Shown here: positions 4,638 to 46,126 of the stretch, piece after piece | How positions within the stretch are numbered: the first letter of the stretch is position 1 | How the letters are laid out: every line of letters starts with the position of its first letter | Source of the DNA: Paludisphaera borealis | Lineage (GTDB): Bacteria; Planctomycetota; Planctomycetia; Isosphaerales; Isosphaeraceae | Length of the DNA stretch: 64,000 nt | Assembly (NCBI RefSeq): GCF_001956985.1 | Contig: NZ_CP019082.1 | Coordinates: forward strand, 3,720,001 to 3,784,000 | Direction: 5' to 3' | Program-made: the position numbers and the translations under genes | Notes under the pieces: model-generated | What the model saw: only the letters and a program-made list of their open reading frames with translations | The model's database searches: none | What the model was told of the DNA's origin: nothing

Positions 4638-6326
4638 ATGATTCCGCCGCGTCGCCCCCTCGCCGCACTGGCCTTCCTCCTCATTCCCACGGCGTTCGCC
4701 CTCGCCGACGAGCCCGTCAAGCTCGCCGGCTCGGCCCGGTTCGACCTGACCGCCGACGCCAAGACCGGCGCGATCGACGACGGCCGGATCACCGTCGGCG
4801 ACGGCTCGATCGACCGCCCTAACTGGCTGCCGGCCGACCGCCAGACCGGCTCGTACACGGTGAACTTCCCCGTCAGCCGGATCGGCTGGCGCGGGCTGTC
4901 GGTCCGGTTCACGCCCAGGGCGACGGGAACCGTCGCGGTCACGCTGATGGGCCCCTGGGAGCAGGCTTCGCCGGGCGTTTTGTACCGCCAGGAAGTCCTC
5001 TGGGACGACCTCAAAGCCGACGGGGCGAAGCTCGCCGACGGTGGGTTCGAGCAAGGCAAGGGCGCCGAGGTTCCGGGCTGGGAGAGCCGGGGCGGGACGG
5101 TCGTCGTCCAGACCGCCGAGGTCGCGGCCGCGTCGGGCGACCGCTACGCCAGAACGTGGCACAACGAGACGCTCTCAACGAAGCTCGAAGTCACGGCCGG
5201 TACTCCCGTGACGCTCCACTTCAAGGCCCGCGCTGCGCTGCCGAAGGGCTTCCGCGAGCCCAAGCGCATCCTCAGTCACGACACGCCGGCCCACCGCGCC
5301 GCGAAGCGGTTCCGCCACGGGGCGAACTTCGGCAACGACCTGGAAGTTCCTCCGGGCCAGACCTGGGCGGTGAACTACAACGCGGACGACATCCGCCACG
5401 TCCGGGCCGAGGGGTTCGACCACATCCGGCTCCCCGTCGGCTGGCACCACTACGCCGGCCCCGCCCCCGAATACAGGCTGTCGCCCGCGATCTTCCAGCG
5501 AGCCGACCGCCTGATCGACGCCGCCCTGGCCGAGAAGCTGGGCGTCATGGTCAACATCCACCACTTCGACGACTTCACGACCGATCCCGCCAAGAACACG
5601 GCCAAATTCCTCGCCATCTGGCGGCAGATCGCCGCGCACTACGCGAACCGGCCCGAGACCCTGGCCTTTGAGCTGCTCAACGAATCGAAGGACGCGGCGA
5701 CGACCGAGGTGATCAACCCGATCTTCGCCGAGGCGATCCGTGAGATTCGCCAGACCAATCCGGACCGGACGATCGTCGTCGGGCCGGGTCGTTGGAACGC
5801 GATCTCCGAGCTGCCGCAGCTCCGCGTGCCGGACGACGACCTGAACATCCTCGTCACGGTCCACTGCTACGACCCGTTCCTCTTCACTCACCAGGGGGCG
5901 AGCTGGACCGGCGACAGCGACGACCGCAAGCAGACCGGCTTCGTCTTCCCGGGCCCGCCGAAGTCGCCCTTGAAGCCCGCCCCGGGCCTCGCGCTCAGCC
6001 CCGGGTTCCTCGCCACGATCAAGGCGTACAACAGCCTCCCGACCGAGTCGAACCCGATCAGCCCGCGGGTGATGGACCAGGCGGTCGCCCGGATCAAGGA
6101 GTGGTCCGCCTACTACGGCCGCCCCGTCTACCTCGGCGAGTTCGGCGCCTACACCGCCGCCGACCCGACCTCACGCGCCAACTACTACCGCGACTTCCGC
6201 ACCCGCCTCGAAGCCGCCGACATCGGCTGGGCCCTCTGGGACTGGCGCGCCGGCTTCAACTACTGGAACCCCAAGACCAACCGCCCCGAGCCCGGCATGC
6301 ACGAAGCCCTCTTCGGCGGCCGGTGA
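4638..6326 (+). CDS. exported glycoside hydrolase family 5 (endoglucanase-like)
   Basis: This 562-residue secreted glycosidase begins with a signal peptide (MIPPRRPLAALAFLL, cleavage near FALA-DEP). Residues of about 25-215 form a beta-rich N-terminal region of carbohydrate-binding type. The GH5 TIM barrel occupies about 215-560. The acid/base is E349 in LLNESKD and the nucleophile is E501 in YLGEFGAY, with typical barrel segments HIRLPVGWHHY and WALWDWRAGF. I chose ATG 4638, preceded by GGGAGA, because the earlier start at 4611 would put ten residues before the signal peptide. The beta-glycan substrate is not determined. Confidence 0.88.
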   Translation: MIPPRRPLAALAFLLIPTAFALADEPVKLAGSARFDLTADAKTGAIDDGRITVGDGSIDRPNWLPADRQTGSYTVNFPVSRIGWRGLSVRFTPRATGTVAVTLMGPWEQASPGVLYRQEVLWDDLKADGAKLADGGFEQGKGAEVPGWESRGGTVVVQTAEVAAASGDRYARTWHNETLSTKLEVTAGTPVTLHFKARAALPKGFREPKRILSHDTPAHRAAKRFRHGANFGNDLEVPPGQTWAVNYNADDIRHVRAEGFDHIRLPVGWHHYAGPAPEYRLSPAIFQRADRLIDAALAEKLGVMVNIHHFDDFTTDPAKNTAKFLAIWRQIAAHYANRPETLAFELLNESKDAATTEVINPIFAEAIREIRQTNPDRTIVVGPGRWNAISELPQLRVPDDDLNILVTVHCYDPFLFTHQGASWTGDSDDRKQTGFVFPGPPKSPLKPAPGLALSPGFLATIKAYNSLPTESNPISPRVMDQAVARIKEWSAYYGRPVYLGEFGAYTAADPTSRANYYRDFRTRLEAADIGWALWDWRAGFNYWNPKTNRPEPGMHEALFGGR

Positions 6327-31045: not shown

Positions 31046-31278
31046 CGTCCGCGAGGATCGCGGCGTCCCCGTTGATTTCGGACCCAAGGAGCGCGACCAT
31101 GGAAGGCGACCACACATCGGGGGAGCGGCGGGACGAACGTTGGCAGGGGATCGAACCCGCGCCGTCCCGCGCGTGTCGAAAGCGCTGGACGAGCCACGCC
31201 GCGCACGAGCGAATCTCCACGCCCGTGCGACCGGCCCCGACCTCGACGCGTCCTCGAATCTCGACGGAATCGCACGCC

Positions 31279-32349
31279 GTGTCTTCCTCGAAGCCATCCG
31301 CTGAAAAACTGATCGTCCTGGACGGCTCGCGCGGCGAAGGGGGAGGCCAGATCCTCCGCTCGGCCCTCACGCTGTCGCTCTTGACCGGGCGGCCGTTCCG
31401 GATCACCAAGATCCGGGCCAACCGCGACAAGCCCGGCCTCCGCCCCCAGCACCTCAAGGCCGTCGAGGCCGCCGCGCTGCTGGGGGGCGCCGACGTCGCC
31501 GGCGCCGAGGTCGGCTCGCGCGATCTCGTGTTCCGGCCGGGCCAGGTCGACCCGCGCGACCTGACGATCGACATCGGCACCGCCGGCTCGACCAGTTTGA
31601 TCCTCCAGACCTTGCACCTGCCGATCGCTCTGAAGGCCGACACCGCCGTCCGGATCATCCTGACCGGCGGCACGTTCAACCCCAAGGCGCCCCCTTATCC
31701 GTTCCTCGACCAAACCTGGCGCGGGCACCTGGCGAACCTGGGGATGCCGATCGCGCTGGCCATGCCCGCCGCCGGCTTCTATCCCCGAGGGGGCGGACGC
31801 CTCGAAGCCTGGATCGAGCCGGCCCGGCCGCGCCCGTGGGTCCGCACCACGCGCGGCGACCTGCTGCGGATTCGAGGCGTCGCCGGCACGGCCAACCTCC
31901 GCGACGACGTCGCCCGGCGGCTCCGCGACCGCGCGCTCGAGCGCATTCGCGACCAAGGCTGGAACGTCGACGTCGAGATCGAGACGGCCTCGTGGACCAG
32001 CCCCGGCCAGGGCGCCGCGATCAGCCTCACCGCCGAGCACGCCGGCTCGACCGCCGCCACCTTCGTGGGGATCGGCGAGCGCGGCAAGCCCGCCGAGCTC
32101 GTCGCCGACGAGGCCGTCGCCGAGCTGTTCGCCTTCCTGAACGTCCCCGACGGAGCCGTCGATCCCCATTCCGCCGACCAGATTTTATTGCCCCTGGCCC
32201 TCGCCGAAGGCCGGTCGGTCTACACCGTCTCGGAAGTGACCGAACACCTCCGCACCAACGCCGCCACCATCCGCTCGTTCCTCGACCGCAGCATCGTCGT
32301 CGAGGAAGCCGCCGTCCCCGGCCAGCCCGGCCGCGTGATCGTGGAATAA
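31279..32349 (+). CDS. rtcA: RNA 3'-terminal phosphate cyclase
   Basis: This 356-residue cytoplasmic enzyme converts RNA 3'-phosphates to 2',3'-cyclic phosphates using ATP through a covalent histidine-AMP intermediate. The family signatures are LDGSRGEGGGQILRSALTLS near the N-terminus, GTAGSTSLILQTL, FYPRGGG and the adenylation site H297 in DPHSADQILLPLALA. I chose GTG 31279 because homology begins at KLIVLDGSRG; the frame extends upstream to 31072 with unrelated Arg-rich residues. No rtcB or rtcR is seen next to it. The downstream gene, on the other strand, is rbfA. Confidence 0.9.
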   Translation: MSSSKPSAEKLIVLDGSRGEGGGQILRSALTLSLLTGRPFRITKIRANRDKPGLRPQHLKAVEAAALLGGADVAGAEVGSRDLVFRPGQVDPRDLTIDIGTAGSTSLILQTLHLPIALKADTAVRIILTGGTFNPKAPPYPFLDQTWRGHLANLGMPIALAMPAAGFYPRGGGRLEAWIEPARPRPWVRTTRGDLLRIRGVAGTANLRDDVARRLRDRALERIRDQGWNVDVEIETASWTSPGQGAAISLTAEHAGSTAATFVGIGERGKPAELVADEAVAELFAFLNVPDGAVDPHSADQILLPLALAEGRSVYTVSEVTEHLRTNAATIRSFLDRSIVVEEAAVPGQPGRVIVE

Positions 32350-33254: not shown

Positions 33255-36200
33255 TTACTTCGCATCCGCTCGCTTGCGGAACTCGTCCCGCGCTCTCCGA
33301 AACAGCGCCTCGACCTGCCGCCGATCCTCGACGCTGGCGAAGCGGTTGCGGGCGGCGACGACCCCCAGCATCTTCTCGGTCCAGTCGACGAAGTACTCGG
33401 CGTCCTGACGGCTCACAATTCGCTGGCCGGCCACGTCGACGTAGACGGGACTCGTGTGGGCCCAGGCGGCCCCGTCGAAGACGTCGTGATGGTTGGGGCC
33501 GCGCACGCGCAGGGCGACCCAACTGCTACGCTCGATCGGCAGCTCGAAGTCGAGGCGTCTGACTCGCAATCCCGCCTCGTCGCCCGCCGGAGTTTCATCG
33601 TGGGCCGACACCTTGCCGTTCACGATCACTTCGATCGTGCTGAAGGGCGCATAGCTCTCCACCGTCACGGAGGCGCGGACGTTGCCCGCCGCGGCGAGTT
33701 CGCACGTCTCGCCTGGCCCCTTGCCGTTGACTTCAAGCGTTGGGATGGGGCCGTTCGTGACGAAACTCCGGCCGCCTTTCAACCCGTCGAGCCAGCTCTG
33801 CATCGTCAGCGGGCCAGCGGTCTTCACATAAACCCGATCACCGCCGAGCGGCTCGGTCGAGCGATCGAGCAGCGCATCGGTGCCGACGCACGCCGAGAGC
33901 CTCAGTCCGCAATTCAGCAGCCGATACCACAGTTCGACCGATTGGCTTTCATCGCTGTTATACGACATCAGATCGACCGCATGGACCACGCCGAGCACGG
34001 CGTCGATGGGCAGTTCCCGCGCGGCACCGCTGGGTTGCGCAAGGTCCTTCTCGAACGGGAACGGCTGGTTGGCGAACAACGGATGGCCGTACGTCACGAC
34101 GCCCCCCTGGCGGACAGCCTCCTCGGCCATCACGTGGTTCGCGGGAAAGTCGTTCCGGTGCGGCGTGTCGTCGAAACCTGTGTACTGCGGCTCCACCAGT
34201 TTCTTGATCCCAAAGAACTGCATGTGACCATAGATCGTGCTCCGCATCTCCTCGCCGAATACGAGGAGATGCCGATCCGTCGATGTGGCGTGCGGCTTGC
34301 CGGTGATCAACTCCGCATCTCGGATATCGTCGCCGACGTTGTTCGACACGCAGAGGTTGACGTAGTTGACGCCCTCCGCCCGGGCCGCGACCAGCGCGTC
34401 CGCAACCTTCACGTCGATCGGGCCGCCCGTATGGAGGTGAACGTGCGAATCGCCCGAGTACCAGCCGCGCGACGCCATGTCGATCCACGGTTGCATCCGC
34501 ACCGTCAACTCGGTGGTCGTCTCGGCGTCCAACATCACCGTCTGTGGGATGGACTCAATGCCGCCGCTGAATTTCAACCGCGCGCGTCCCGGCGGCAATT
34601 TCACGTCGAAGGAGTCGTCCGCGTAGAAATACGACTCGTCGCGATTCGTCTTGCGGGCCGCGGCGCCGACCGGCCCGTACGGCTTGCCGTCATTTCCAAT
34701 GATGCTGACGCGAGCAGCCGCCGGCGCGTTGTCGCGAAGCATCCTCACATGAGCCTTCGGCCCTGCGTCGGAATCGAAGTCGGAATCATCGAGCACAAGC
34801 CGGAAGATCGTCCCCTCGTAACCGACCAGCAGCAGTTCGCCGTCGGAGTCGACGCCGAACGAAGCGATCTTCTGCGGCGACTCGCCGATCTGCCGAACCT
34901 TGGTCAGCTTGCGGTCGGCTTGCGTCAACGCCCAGACCCGCTTCGACTCGAAGTCGCCGAAGATGTAGGCCCCGTAATACGACGGATTGCGCTTCCCCCG
35001 ATAAACATAGCCCCCCGTGACGGATGGGCCGAGCATGTGTTTGTAGGCCAACACCGGCGGCGTGTATTTTTCGCCTTCCCGGCGGTAGCGATCCGAGAAC
35101 TTCATGAAGCCTTCGTAGACGTTCCAGCCGTGATTCTCGCCGGCCCGGGCGATCGAGACTTCTTCGAACAGATCCTGACCGACGTCGCCGACCCACAGGT
35201 CGCCCGCGACCGGATCGAAGCTGAAGCGCCACGGCATGCGAAAACCCGACGCCCAGATCTCCGGGCGGACGGGCGGGGCGGCGTTTCGATAGGGATTCGA
35301 CTCGGGAATCGCGTACGGCTCGCCCCCCTCCTGGCGGTCGACGTCGATCCGCAGGATGGCTCCGGTCAACCGGCTCAAGTCCTGGCTGTGGCCTTCGGGG
35401 TCTTCCTGCGGACCGGCGTCCCCCGCGCCGATATACAGGAACCCGTCCGGGCCGAACGCCAGCATGCCTCCCCAGTGCAGGTCGGTGTCCTGATGGATCT
35501 GCAAGAGCCGCCGGGAAGGGACGCCCGCGTCGCGCCGCAGGTCGGCGGTCGCCTGCCGCTCGACGATCACCGGAGAGAAGAAGCTGCCTTGGTTGCGGAC
35601 GTGGTAGTTCACGTAATACTTGCGGTTTTCGAGAAACAGCGGATGAAAGGCGACGCACACCACGCCCTCGAAGTCGCCGGTCGAAGCCTCGTCGCTGAAG
35701 TCGGCGAACAGCTCCCTTTGATGCTCGCCTCCGTCCACTTCGAAGCGCCAGATCCTCCGCGCCTTCTGCTCGACGACGAGAAACGCGCTCTTGCTGCCCG
35801 GTATCGCGACGATCCAGACCGGATGGTCGAACCGCAGTTCGTCTTTATACAGCGGCACGAGCCGGATTGGTTTTTCGACTGCTGGAATCTCACTCGGCAT
35901 GCCCGCGAGCCGCGACTCGCCTTCCGGTTGCTTCAGCGTCTCAAGATAAGCGATCAGGTCCGCGAACTGCTCGGCCTTCATCGTCTTGTTCAGTCCGGCA
36001 GGCATCAGCGACGTGCCGGTCCGTTTCTCCTGCTCGACCTCGGCGCGCGGCAGTCGCAGCAGTTTGCCCTCCGCATCGAGCAGTTGAAGCTCGTCGTCGG
36101 TTCGCTTATGCAGTACGCCCGTATGCACCTTGCCGTCCGTCGTGGTCGCGACGATCGTGCCGTAATCGGGGTGGATCCAAGCGTTCGGCTCCAGCACCGA

Positions 36201-36470
36201 TCGGATCAGTTGCTCGCGCCCGTATTTATCGCCGACGGCCCCCAGGTCCGGCCCCGCGCCCCGCTCGTCGCCCTTGAAAACATGGCATTTCTTGCAGCCC
36301 GCGGCGTCCGACTCGAACAGGACTTTTCCCCGAGCCGGATCGCCGCCATTGAGCCCGGCTTGTCGATACGCGGCGAGTTCGTCCTTCTCGATCTGCTGGC
36401 CGCTGAGCCGATCCGTCAAGCCGCCGAACAGCAATCCGCAAAGGCCGAACGCGAGATAAATTCGAGGCAT
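33255..36470 (-). CDS. three-part exported fusion: cytochrome c, glucose/sorbosone dehydrogenase-like propeller, CehA/McbA-like metallohydrolase
   Basis: This 1071-residue protein has a signal peptide (MPRIYLAFGLCGLLFGGL, cleavage near LSGQQ). Residues of about 40-180 form a PVC-type cytochrome c domain with haem motif C59-K-K-C62-H63 and a distal Met candidate in SLMPAGLNK. Residues of about 200-560 are a six-bladed PQQ-dependent sugar-dehydrogenase-like propeller (LAFGPDGFLYIGAGD, GFRMPWRFSFDP, GENHGWNVYEGF). From about 660 onward is a PHP/CehA-like part with SGDSHVHLHTGG and TYGHPLFAN. The first two parts suggest periplasmic sugar oxidation feeding electrons to haem. The third may hydrolyse an ester or phosphoester. 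ATG 36470 fits the signal better than the frame start at 36527. Confidence 0.83.
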   Translation of the reverse strand: MPRIYLAFGLCGLLFGGLTDRLSGQQIEKDELAAYRQAGLNGGDPARGKVLFESDAAGCKKCHVFKGDERGAGPDLGAVGDKYGREQLIRSVLEPNAWIHPDYGTIVATTTDGKVHTGVLHKRTDDELQLLDAEGKLLRLPRAEVEQEKRTGTSLMPAGLNKTMKAEQFADLIAYLETLKQPEGESRLAGMPSEIPAVEKPIRLVPLYKDELRFDHPVWIVAIPGSKSAFLVVEQKARRIWRFEVDGGEHQRELFADFSDEASTGDFEGVVCVAFHPLFLENRKYYVNYHVRNQGSFFSPVIVERQATADLRRDAGVPSRRLLQIHQDTDLHWGGMLAFGPDGFLYIGAGDAGPQEDPEGHSQDLSRLTGAILRIDVDRQEGGEPYAIPESNPYRNAAPPVRPEIWASGFRMPWRFSFDPVAGDLWVGDVGQDLFEEVSIARAGENHGWNVYEGFMKFSDRYRREGEKYTPPVLAYKHMLGPSVTGGYVYRGKRNPSYYGAYIFGDFESKRVWALTQADRKLTKVRQIGESPQKIASFGVDSDGELLLVGYEGTIFRLVLDDSDFDSDAGPKAHVRMLRDNAPAAARVSIIGNDGKPYGPVGAAARKTNRDESYFYADDSFDVKLPPGRARLKFSGGIESIPQTVMLDAETTTELTVRMQPWIDMASRGWYSGDSHVHLHTGGPIDVKVADALVAARAEGVNYVNLCVSNNVGDDIRDAELITGKPHATSTDRHLLVFGEEMRSTIYGHMQFFGIKKLVEPQYTGFDDTPHRNDFPANHVMAEEAVRQGGVVTYGHPLFANQPFPFEKDLAQPSGAARELPIDAVLGVVHAVDLMSYNSDESQSVELWYRLLNCGLRLSACVGTDALLDRSTEPLGGDRVYVKTAGPLTMQSWLDGLKGGRSFVTNGPIPTLEVNGKGPGETCELAAAGNVRASVTVESYAPFSTIEVIVNGKVSAHDETPAGDEAGLRVRRLDFELPIERSSWVALRVRGPNHHDVFDGAAWAHTSPVYVDVAGQRIVSRQDAEYFVDWTEKMLGVVAARNRFASVEDRRQVEALFRRARDEFRKRADAK

Positions 36471-36683
36471 GAATCGATTCCCAAGGTGCAAAGACCCGCC
36501 CATGATTTGGAGGGGCGCAGCGAGCAAGTTGGATTCCCGTAGAGCGATAACCGGAGGTCGAGGCCCTCGCCGCCCTCCTCGGTCCTGACGATGGGGTCCA
36601 CTTCAACCAGGCGCGCATCAGCGCGTGGGCGTGGGAGGAAGGCGCGGCTGCAACTCGTCCGAGCGGAGGAGGCCGTCCCGTCC

Positions 36684-43551: not shown

Positions 43552-43888
43552 ACGACTCTCCGGAGCGGGCGAACGGCCGGCTCACGTCGGCGCGGTTCGT
43601 CGCGGCTTCGCGAAAGCACAGCCGCACCCTTGCATCGCGCCGTGATCCTGGACGCCTCGGCCAAGGACTCGACGTGGGGCGGTATTTGCAAAGGAGTTAA
43701 GGATACTCGGCTTCTTCAACACCGGTAAGACCTACCCGGAAGGACCTGGACATCGAGACCAGCATGGACGAGGCGTCCGAAGACCGATCCGCGTCGTGGC
43801 CGTCGTCGTCGGCCCGGGTTACGATGGCACGCGTCATCGTTGCCGTCGGCGAGGGTCGACGGGCCAACCACGACGGGAGAGCCGAGCC
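43552..43888. other. divergent promoter region
   Basis: These 337 bases separate the transporter (minus) from the GH172-like gene (plus) and must contain both promoters. I see no convincing -35/-10 pair, repeat or small gene. The frame extending back from the downstream gene to 43796 is Arg-rich and lacks a signal peptide. Confidence 0.5.
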
Positions 43889-46126
43889 ATGTCGTTGCGC
43901 CGTCATACCCGCCCCGGGGCTTTGATCGCCCTGCTTCTTTTTTCGACCAGCGCGACGGCCGACGAGCCGCCGACGATCCCGGTCGGGCTCGACTCCTATC
44001 TCCAGTGGGAGAAATGGCCGTACCAGCGGATCGGGGCCCGGGCGTACATGCGGAGCACTTACGACCGACGCGGCGGGAACGAGGGAGCCGACGCGTCCCA
44101 CTTCCTGTACCAGGAGCGGGACGACTTCAACGTCAGCCTCGACGTGGAAGGGCCCGGGGTGCTGTACTTCGCCCGGTACAACCACTGGCACGGCAGCCCC
44201 TGGCACTACGAGGTCGACGGGACCGATCATATCGTCAAGGAATCGAGCACGGCCGACCCGAACAAGCCGGCGGCGGATTCCGTGTTCCTACCCGCGTCGC
44301 TGTTCCCCAACCCGCTCGCCTGGACGTGGTCGGCGACCAAGGGGGCCGACATGTCGTGGGTTCCGATCCCGTTCGAGCGGTCGTTCCGGATGGCCTATTC
44401 CCGCACCCATTACGGGACCGGGTATTACATCTACCACCAGTTCGTCCGGGGCGCGAAGCTGTCGCGGCCGATCCGGGCGTGGGACGCCAAGACCCCGCCC
44501 GACCCCGAGGCGCTCAAGCTGATCGCCCGGTCCGGGACCGACATCGCTCCGCGACCGGGCACGCCGGACGGCGACAAGGTCGGCGTCCGCGAGCAGCACG
44601 GGACGGTCGACTTGAAGCAGGGCGAGACGGTTGCGCTGGTGAAGCTCGACAACGCGCCCGCCATGATCCGGGCGCTCGAGTTTTCCGCCCCGAGGGATTC
44701 GGCCCTCGCCCTCGGCCGGGCTCGACTGCGGGTGACCTGGGACGGCCGCCCGTCGGCCTCGATCGACGCCCCGGTCGCACTGTTTTACGGGTCCGGCGCC
44801 CTGTACAACCGCGACGGCCGCGAATACCTGGTCAAGGGGTTCCCGATCCACGTCCGGTACGACGACTCGCGCGTCCACCTGGCCTGCTACTTCCCGATGC
44901 CGTTCTTCCGGTCAGCCAAAGTCGAACTGATCGCCGCCAGCGAGCCCGTCCCGGACGTCCGATGGTCGGTGCGAACGGCCCCGTACCGCGACCCGGCGAA
45001 CCACGTGGCTTACTTCCACGCGACCTACGCCGACCACGGCGCCACTCCGGAGCCCGGCAAGGACCTGGTCCTGCTCGACACCCGAAACGCCGAGGGCGGG
45101 GGTGATTGGGCCGGGCACCTGGTCGGAACGTCGTTCATCTTTTCGCATGACGCCAGGCTCGACACCCTGGAGGGAGACCCGAGGTTCTTCTTCGACGATA
45201 GCCAGACCCCGCAAGCGCAAGGCACAGGCACCGAGGAGTGGGGAGGCGGCGGCGACTACTGGGGAGGACGGAACATGACCCTGCCGTTCGCCGGTCACCC
45301 GATCGGCGCGAAGGACGCCAAGTCGGCCGTGAGCGACCTCGACAAGATCGAGTCGGCCTATCGATTCCTGCTCGCCGACCTGATGCCGTTCGCCAAGAAC
45401 GCCAGGATTCAACTGGAGCACGGCGGGACGAACGAGTCGACCGAGCACTACGAGACCGTCGCGTACTGGTACGGGACGCCCGGCCATGCGCTGATCCAGA
45501 CCGACGCGTTCCAGGTCGGCGACGAGGCGAGCGAGCACGCCCACCGATACGTTTCGCCCAACGCCTCCGCGCCGACGGAGATCACGTCCCGGTACGAGTG
45601 GGGGCCGGACCATGTGAAGGGCAAGGAAGTCTACCCCGCGCACACCGACAAGGGACGGACCACGACCGGTGCGTCGGAGTTCACCCTGAAGATCGACCCA
45701 AAGAACCTCGGCGTGTTGCTCCGGAGGAAGCTCGACTACGCGTACCCGAACCAGCGGGCCGAGGTCGAAGTGGCCGACGCCCGCGATGACCACGAAGGCA
45801 CCGCGCTCAAGTGGAGCCCGGCCGGCGCATGGTACACGGCCGGATCAAACACATGCGTCTACTCTAATCCGAAGGACGAGCTGGGCGAAACCCAGCACGT
45901 CGCCCAGACTTCGAACCGACGGTTCCGCGACGATGAGTTCCTGATCCCCCGCGACCTGACCGCCGGCCGGTCGGCGATCCGCGTCCGGGTCCGGTTCACG
46001 CCGGTCGACCGTCCGCTGTTCCCAGGGCGTCCCGTCGCCCCCTTGGCCTGGAGCGAGATCCGCTACACCGCTTACAGCTACGTCATGCCGGATTCGCCCG
46101 TGAGCCAGGGCGACGCGCCTCGATAG
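43889..46126 (+). CDS. exported DUF2961 (GH172-like) glycosidase
   Basis: This 745-residue protein has a signal peptide (MSLRRHTRPGALIALLLFST, cleavage near TA-DEP). A DUF2961 beta-jelly-roll domain spans about residues 330-700, with hallmark GTGTEEWGGGGDYWGG and the later AYWYGTPGH. Characterised GH172 enzymes act on fructans or arabinofuranosides, with catalytic acids in the TE(D/E) motif region. The first 300 residues are an additional beta-rich part. GGGAGAG lies before ATG 43889. It is unlinked to other glycan genes here, apart from a convergent ceramidase-like gene. Confidence 0.8.
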   Translation: MSLRRHTRPGALIALLLFSTSATADEPPTIPVGLDSYLQWEKWPYQRIGARAYMRSTYDRRGGNEGADASHFLYQERDDFNVSLDVEGPGVLYFARYNHWHGSPWHYEVDGTDHIVKESSTADPNKPAADSVFLPASLFPNPLAWTWSATKGADMSWVPIPFERSFRMAYSRTHYGTGYYIYHQFVRGAKLSRPIRAWDAKTPPDPEALKLIARSGTDIAPRPGTPDGDKVGVREQHGTVDLKQGETVALVKLDNAPAMIRALEFSAPRDSALALGRARLRVTWDGRPSASIDAPVALFYGSGALYNRDGREYLVKGFPIHVRYDDSRVHLACYFPMPFFRSAKVELIAASEPVPDVRWSVRTAPYRDPANHVAYFHATYADHGATPEPGKDLVLLDTRNAEGGGDWAGHLVGTSFIFSHDARLDTLEGDPRFFFDDSQTPQAQGTGTEEWGGGGDYWGGRNMTLPFAGHPIGAKDAKSAVSDLDKIESAYRFLLADLMPFAKNARIQLEHGGTNESTEHYETVAYWYGTPGHALIQTDAFQVGDEASEHAHRYVSPNASAPTEITSRYEWGPDHVKGKEVYPAHTDKGRTTTGASEFTLKIDPKNLGVLLRRKLDYAYPNQRAEVEVADARDDHEGTALKWSPAGAWYTAGSNTCVYSNPKDELGETQHVAQTSNRRFRDDEFLIPRDLTAGRSAIRVRVRFTPVDRPLFPGRPVAPLAWSEIRYTAYSYVMPDSPVSQGDAPR

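Follow-up and report, generated by a model that had tools for sequence, protein, structure and literature searches.

A planctomycete protein joining a haem c domain, a GSDH-type propeller and a CehA/McbA-type metallohydrolase, with possible coupling of oxidation to hydrolysis

The DNA analysed, referred to as the window, comprised 64,000 nucleotides of the Paludisphaera borealis genome (7.65 Mb; contig NZ_CP019082.1, positions 3,720,001 to 3,784,000). The gene under study lies on its minus strand (33255..36470, stop included) and encodes a protein of 1071 aa in which known families are combined in a new way. Three domains in it scored above their curated cut-offs: a TIGR02603 haem domain, a Pfam GSDH propeller and a PHP metallohydrolase of the CehA/McbA family. 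The balance of the evidence is judged even for its being an exported multidomain enzyme that couples oxidation to metal-dependent hydrolysis, with a carbohydrate-type substrate and an unproven cofactor. The evidence lies in domain identities, in fold matches of the predicted models, in conserved sites and in the repeated physical linkage of the parts. Features of the protein are on the minus strand and are given in window coordinates throughout.

Integrity and architecture of the gene

The frame was uninterrupted for 1071 codons, from an ATG at 36470 to a stop at 33255. The closest named relatives of the protein by sequence belong to Isosphaeraceae (Planctomycetota), and five other fused full-length orthologues were recovered (61–72% identity end to end), with NF038032 and TIGR02603 matches in 5/5. 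GC content at the third codon position was 0.76–0.85 across all five segments of the gene. An assembly artefact or read-through was ruled out, and the fusion was taken to be real, because of these further full-length fusions and the similar third-position GC throughout. A hydrophobic stretch at residues ~1–25 (36396..36470), judged by eye and modelled with low confidence, is a probable Sec signal peptide, so that the protein looks like an exported one; split hydrolase genes have their own hydrophobic N-terminus, also judged by eye. A preliminary description had proposed a single exported chain with a CxxCH haem domain, a GSDH-like propeller and a PHP-type hydrolase, and all three parts are confirmed. 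The predicted full-length structure was of moderate quality (predicted local distance difference test, pLDDT, 78; predicted template modelling score, pTM, 0.54). A 1028-aa open frame lies antisense to the gene (window 33456–36542, plus strand) and is likely a by-product of high GC.

Conservation in the N-terminal half was read from alignment A4 (13 rows: the window protein, 11 close relatives and the haem-propeller half of the paralogue L021). The haem c domain (residues 43–178; 35937..36344) scored 95 bits against the NCBIfam model TIGR02603 (cut-off 68.15), and in the predicted structure it matched Kustd1711 (7zs0; Foldseek E 5.6e-8). Its CKKCH attachment motif (residues 59–63; 36282..36296) retained C59, C62 and H63 in 13/13 rows, as did Met156 (36003..36005), a candidate distal haem ligand.

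The metallohydrolase

The NCBIfam model CehA_McbA_metalo (NF038032) matched residues 669–1012 with 209.1 bits (cut-off 80), and the motif GDSHVHLHTGG was located at residues 673–683. The structure of the hydrolase was predicted well (pLDDT 91, pTM 0.92). In plain Foldseek output glycosidase-type chains came first (best 3cmg, TM 0.18) and PHP entries were absent among the top 50 matches listed. Re-examination of Foldseek's list with VIA-align placed PHP entries at the top, namely 3e38 (Z 16.2, 3.8 A, 244 aligned), 2anu (Z 15.4, 3.0 A, 197 aligned) and 7rty (Z 14.5, 3.3 A, 208 aligned). By sequence, no solved relative of the hydrolase was found at E <= 1 (profile A3). The PHP barrel was accordingly delimited from VIA-align and NF038032 at residues ~668–908 (33747..34469).

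Site conservation was scored in alignment A6, which comprises 23 hydrolase sequences including that of the window, some only 28–30% identical to it. The HVH motif with His676 and His678 (34437..34445), the candidate metal ligands Glu741 (34248..34250) and Asp865 (33876..33878), and His749 (34224..34226) and His796 (34083..34085) were present in 23/23 sequences, as were E699, R743 and H1005. Conservation of the hydrolase motif residues in orthologues, which the preliminary description had left to be checked, is thereby established, and together with the PHP fold match of the model it points to a metal-type site in the C-terminal part, whose loss would have counted against that description. By analogy with the PHP family, the conserved residues may bind metal. 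In alignment A7, His749 corresponded to McbA His467 and CehA His453, and His796 to McbA His504 and CehA His495; these four residues are given as important for activity, and McbA His477 as crucial, in the available part of a review (PMC8292978). At the CehA His313 and His315 positions cited in the same available part, the CFD-1 record used here has E and L, and its HxH motif is at 351/353. Also in A7, Arg replaces the first HxH His in the Croceicoccus protein, and CehA as aligned has Pro at the R743 position.

Two further domains and a hairpin were placed around the barrel, the domains being absent from the preliminary description. A CnaB-like beta-sandwich precedes it (residues ~571–663; 34482..34760; VIA over model residues 1–93, best 8bdw at Z 8.5, which the tool itself marks as weak), an Ig-like domain follows it (residues ~905–1015; 33426..33758; VIA over model residues 335–445, best 2ox5 at Z 10.8), and the chain ends in a helical hairpin (residues 1021–1069; 33264..33410) seen in the secondary structure of the predicted model.

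The propeller and its cofactor

The GSDH-type propeller (residues 215–549; 34824..35828) matched Pfam GSDH (PF07995) with 114.8 bits (cut-off 25) and is 24% identical to E. coli YliI. Among solved structures the best Foldseek match by E-value was HHIP (7pgm, E 2.3e-22, TM 0.67 of target), and the best by TM-score of target were aldose sugar dehydrogenases (Asd 3a9g, 0.83; 7cgz_A, 0.85). The residues expected to bind pyrroloquinoline quinone (PQQ) were taken from sGDH and AA12 enzymes, as described in the available portions of PMC6881789 and PMC6881810, and from YliI; sGDH residue numbers were placed on YliI columns by motif, which is our own mapping.

The catalytic pair was retained and the PQQ anchors were lost, a point of interest beyond the preliminary description. 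His332 (35475..35477), the equivalent of sGDH His144, which the same portions of PMC6881789 and PMC6881810 give as the catalytic base, was invariant (13/13 A4 rows). Arg411-Met412 (35235..35240) occupy the sGDH Arg228-Asn229 dyad; the Arg was present in 13/13 rows, and the Asn229 position held Met in 11/13, Asn only in L004 and Glu in L021, so that Met here may mark this subfamily. Glu508 (34947..34949) stands at the Lys377 position and was Glu in every row. The Arg408 position was A, S or V in 13/13 (Arg in 0/13), and the Arg406 position was basic (Lys or Arg) in 13/13. In the calcium-site region, the Gly247 position was Gly in 13/13, the Pro248 position Gln in 13/13 and the Asp252 position Glu in 12/13; this calcium Asp is often Glu in AA12 enzymes, according to the available part of PMC6881789.

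The PQQ-specific model TIGR03606 scored 39.6 bits on the window protein, far below its cut-off of 434.55. The biosynthetic gene pqqC was not found in 9/9 carrier genomes in a search in which control genome G366 was positive; it was present in just 4/397 genomes of the class and was not found in 14/14 control genomes, E. coli included. A search for pqqE was uninformative, its model giving matches under cut-off in each of the 14 control genomes and five such matches in the host genome. From these residues and searches PQQ appears unlikely as the cofactor of the propeller; it is called unlikely rather than excluded because PQQ might be scavenged or bound differently, as in AA12 enzymes. The result suggests that some planctomycete proteins annotated as PQQ sugar dehydrogenases may not use PQQ.

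Recurrence of the association in relatives

Hydrolase relatives (E <= 1e-100) were present in 9/397 genomes of the class, the host genome counted, and in none of the five remaining genomes of its genus. At E <= 1e-50 a sample of the phylum yielded matches in 3/392, namely the host genome and two proteins 36–37% identical to the window hydrolase (L046:1489-3924 and L047:505-2937). In these two a CehA-type hydrolase carries an N-terminal TolB/PD40-like propeller and not a GSDH one, the domain reading of L047 resting on its similarity to L046.

Arrangements were compared at 18 loci after removal of duplicate contigs: the window, 15 loci from an exact-peptide search, and L049 and L050. The shares describe close relatives only, given the exact-peptide search. 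The haem-propeller half and the hydrolase were fused at 6/18 loci (the window, L002, L003, L004, L013 and L050) and were adjacent genes on the same strand at 5/18 (L005, L006, L008, L049 and L012, the oxidase of L012 being cut by the contig end). The intergenic gap in the four complete pairs was ~31–122 bp by the starts chosen. The arrangement at L015 (1/18) was not assignable at a contig end. L006 and L012, from two metagenome assemblies, had hydrolase-side frames ~99% identical and oxidase-side frames only ~75% identical, which may reflect recombination or chimaeric assembly; with nearly identical hydrolase sides, the two are not independent loci.

The halves diverge in step. Fused pairs were 60–72% identical in the N-terminal half and 59–72% in the C-terminal half, and the halves differed by no more than 10 points in any of the 45 pairs, a maximum reached by L008-L049. 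Little of the backbone was resolved in either half-tree (2 branches starred among 10 in one and among 13 in the other), and the trees do not discriminate a single fusion event from repeated ones or a split ancestor from a fused one. The paralogue L021 (1402-3591, same genus) has a haem-propeller half ~46% identical to that of the window protein and, where the latter has its hydrolase, a C-terminal extension of different appearance.

A further fusion was found in the opposite order, which adds to the preliminary description. Five proteins of ~1600 aa (L057 and L074–L077), all from the window's taxonomic family, contain NF038032, then TIGR02604, which we take to be a propeller, and end in TIGR02603, with all three models above cut-off in 5/5; HEAT repeats were found in L057, the only member scanned for them. 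This fusion is apparently independent of the window type, as suggested by the ~28% identity of its hydrolases to that of the window, the reversed order and the middle domain of another family. The reverse-order hydrolase group (E <= 1e-50) was present in 35/397 genomes of the class, with a frame of at least 1577 aa in 24/35, some near 2000 aa, and of 509–1289 aa in 11; the domain content of the long frames was checked in the five proteins named. No hydrolase of this group was found in the window's own genome at E <= 1e-50.

Proposed function and alternatives

Because hydrolase, redox domain and haem are repeatedly joined, the activities are proposed to serve one extracytoplasmic process. The preliminary description had suggested that hydrolysis and oxidation are linked in function, and the fused, adjacent and reverse-order arrangements reasonably support such a coupling. 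The PHP domain would cleave an ester-like bond at a metal site formed by H676, H678, E741, H749, H796 and D865. The propeller would perform a redox half-reaction with His332 as base and with Arg411, and electrons would pass from it to the haem c domain of the same chain (C59xxC62H63, Met156). A carbohydrate derivative is the probable substrate. Plausibly, an aldose would be oxidised to a lactone, and the PHP domain would then open the cyclic ester to give an aldonic acid, an order that fits an esterase-type partner. If the coupling is real, both half-reactions are accessible in one protein. The protein also places the CehA/McbA family, described in the cited papers for pesticide degradation, in a natural context and points to a natural role for it in planctomycete carbohydrate chemistry.

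A carbohydrate substrate is favoured because of kinship to GSDH, the neighbouring genes at several loci and one purified protein. MR_MLE genes, of a superfamily that we take to include sugar-acid dehydratases, were found near L005/L012, L013 and L016, with an HpcH/HpaI aldolase gene also at L013 and L016. In the nine carrier genomes (~73.8 Mb by rounded sizes) there were 111 MR_MLE matches at E <= 1e-10, from which ~0.24 would be expected in the 162 kb flanking the 17 loci, as against four loci observed (three if L005 and L012 are one); the density is carried over from other genomes for L005, L012 and L016, which lie outside the nine, and L005 was assigned by similarity to L012. The Poisson chance of at least three loci, ~0.002, was worked by hand, post hoc and without correction, and is a hint only. 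The purified protein is Lac161_ORF7, a metagenome-cloned TIGR02604-HEAT-cytochrome c protein that hydrolysed lactose, according to the available part of PMC5342196.

Several observations weigh against a coupled carbohydrate enzyme. The MR_MLE association was spotted after the fact, none of the host genome's own MR_MLE matches lies inside the window, and 0/12 scanned neighbour open reading frames in the window encode sugar-acid functions. McbA His477 aligns with Val759 of the window protein, so that this His is not conserved. With the canonical PQQ anchors lost and HHIP nearest by E-value, the propeller is perhaps no dehydrogenase. The hydrolase persists without the oxidase at some loci: it stood without an adjacent intact oxidase at 4/18 (L007, L011, L014 and L016), and the oxidase stood without an adjacent hydrolase at 2/18 (L009 and L010). 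No activity data for this subfamily were found in the literature searched.

In a stronger form the proposal would be that planctomycetes evolved a single-chain 'oxidise and hydrolyse' enzyme at least twice, in opposite domain orders, in which a propeller that has ceased to hold PQQ in the known manner oxidises a sugar with a different cofactor and feeds the fused haem, after which the fused PHP metallo-esterase opens the lactone or cleaves the activated bond. This form is considered rather unlikely; were it true, the protein would be a carbohydrate-active system of a new kind, acting outside the cytoplasm.

Among the alternatives, the one that survives best, although still on the unlikely side, is that the hydrolase is the sole enzyme, the propeller a glycan- or protein-binding module and the haem domain accessory or an inherited partner. 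HHIP, the solved propeller nearest by E-value, is a non-enzymatic propeller of an animal signalling protein, and the family-wide loss of PQQ anchors fits such a role. The hydrolase has also been retained where the oxidase decayed (two metagenome assemblies): at L011 only stop-containing remnants of the oxidase (4706-5030) are left upstream of an intact hydrolase, and at L007 it is mostly deleted, with a remnant (6001-6159) upstream of an intact hydrolase. The TolB/PD40-like propeller of L046 and L047 in place of GSDH also counts in favour of this alternative. Set against this, the target TM-scores favour the aldose sugar dehydrogenases over HHIP, His332 and Arg411 are invariant whereas the Arg position is His in HHIP, the haem ligands are invariant too, and the reverse-order fusion again unites a TIGR02604 domain with haem.

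A conventional quinohaemoprotein sugar dehydrogenase that depends on PQQ and calcium and has a hydrolase attached, as the preliminary description had it, is improbable. The GSDH family and fold, together with the retained catalytic His, Arg and basic residue at the Arg406 position, speak for such an enzyme; CcPDH, an AA12 enzyme, binds PQQ without Lys377 and with a different Arg replacing Arg408 (available part of PMC6881789), and E. coli has YliI although no pqqC was found there, so PQQ may be scavenged. This enzyme type was downgraded for the loss of most PQQ ligands in the relatives (N229 kept in 1/13, K377 and R408 in 0/13), the Gln at the P248 position, the TIGR03606 score far under cut-off and the failure to find pqqC in the carriers by a search positive in its control genome.

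Most doubtful of all is that the two halves use different substrates and are joined merely for co-expression and co-export, since, although stand-alone copies of either half are known and no shared genomic context was seen around the window copy, the association recurs in three arrangements, one of them the reverse-order fusion of apparently independent origin, and the halves diverge in step.

Comparison with known systems

The carbaryl and carbofuran hydrolases McbA and CehA are homologous to the window hydrolase (tblastn, 26% identity, E 6e-21 and 27%, E 2e-20, respectively) and match the same hidden Markov model, and conservation extends to HxH, Glu, Asp and two of the His that were reported; they differ in having no haem or GSDH match and in the residue at the McbA His477 position, and their identity is too low for substrate inference. 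sGDH and Asd/YliI share the propeller fold, the Pfam GSDH match and the catalytic His and Arg, but the window protein has lost the Asn229, Lys377 and Arg408 equivalents, misses the TIGR03606 cut-off and is distant from YliI. HHIP has the top E-value among solved structures both by sequence and by Foldseek; the match covers the propeller alone, and the Arg411 equivalent differs.

PVC-type TIGR02604, HEAT and TIGR02603 proteins, Lac161_ORF7 among them, likewise join a TIGR02603 haem to a putative dehydrogenase domain, but with TIGR02604 for GSDH, the reverse domain order and HEAT repeats (L057). TIGR02604 was absent from the six families listed for the window protein at E up to 1. The fungal AA12-AA8 enzyme CcPDH is likewise a single chain in which a six-bladed propeller dehydrogenase is linked to a haem domain that accepts electrons; it differs in a haem b domain of another fold, in having no hydrolase and in binding PQQ by partly different residues (both comparisons from the available part of PMC6881789). 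The phrase 'McbA family metallohydrolase' was not found in the literature searched, and a fusion of this kind is not named in the titles or abstract openings of related papers, subscription journals lying outside both searches.

Genomic context

No gene was seen to be common to all loci among the neighbour matches listed. DUF1501 genes lie near several hydrolase copies (L005:9437-11002, L008:52-1482, L012:2484-3989, L049:5119-6501 and others); they were identified by Pfam in L012, L049 and L007 and elsewhere by similarity. Their proximity is possibly just abundance, and, as DUF1501 and sulfatase genes are presumably very abundant in planctomycetes, such neighbours were not used as evidence.

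The 12 neighbouring open reading frames scanned in the window include those for RtcA, an HxlR regulator, a PRISE-like reductase, a methyltransferase, a type I phosphodiesterase, a CitMHS transporter and a DUF2961 protein. Matches below cut-off were obtained for an RbfA-like frame, Ceramidase_alk and DUF1573, and two others had no match. The gene for the RNA 3'-terminal phosphate cyclase RtcA is located at window 31072-32346 and that for the DUF2961 protein at 43796-46123, both on the plus strand.

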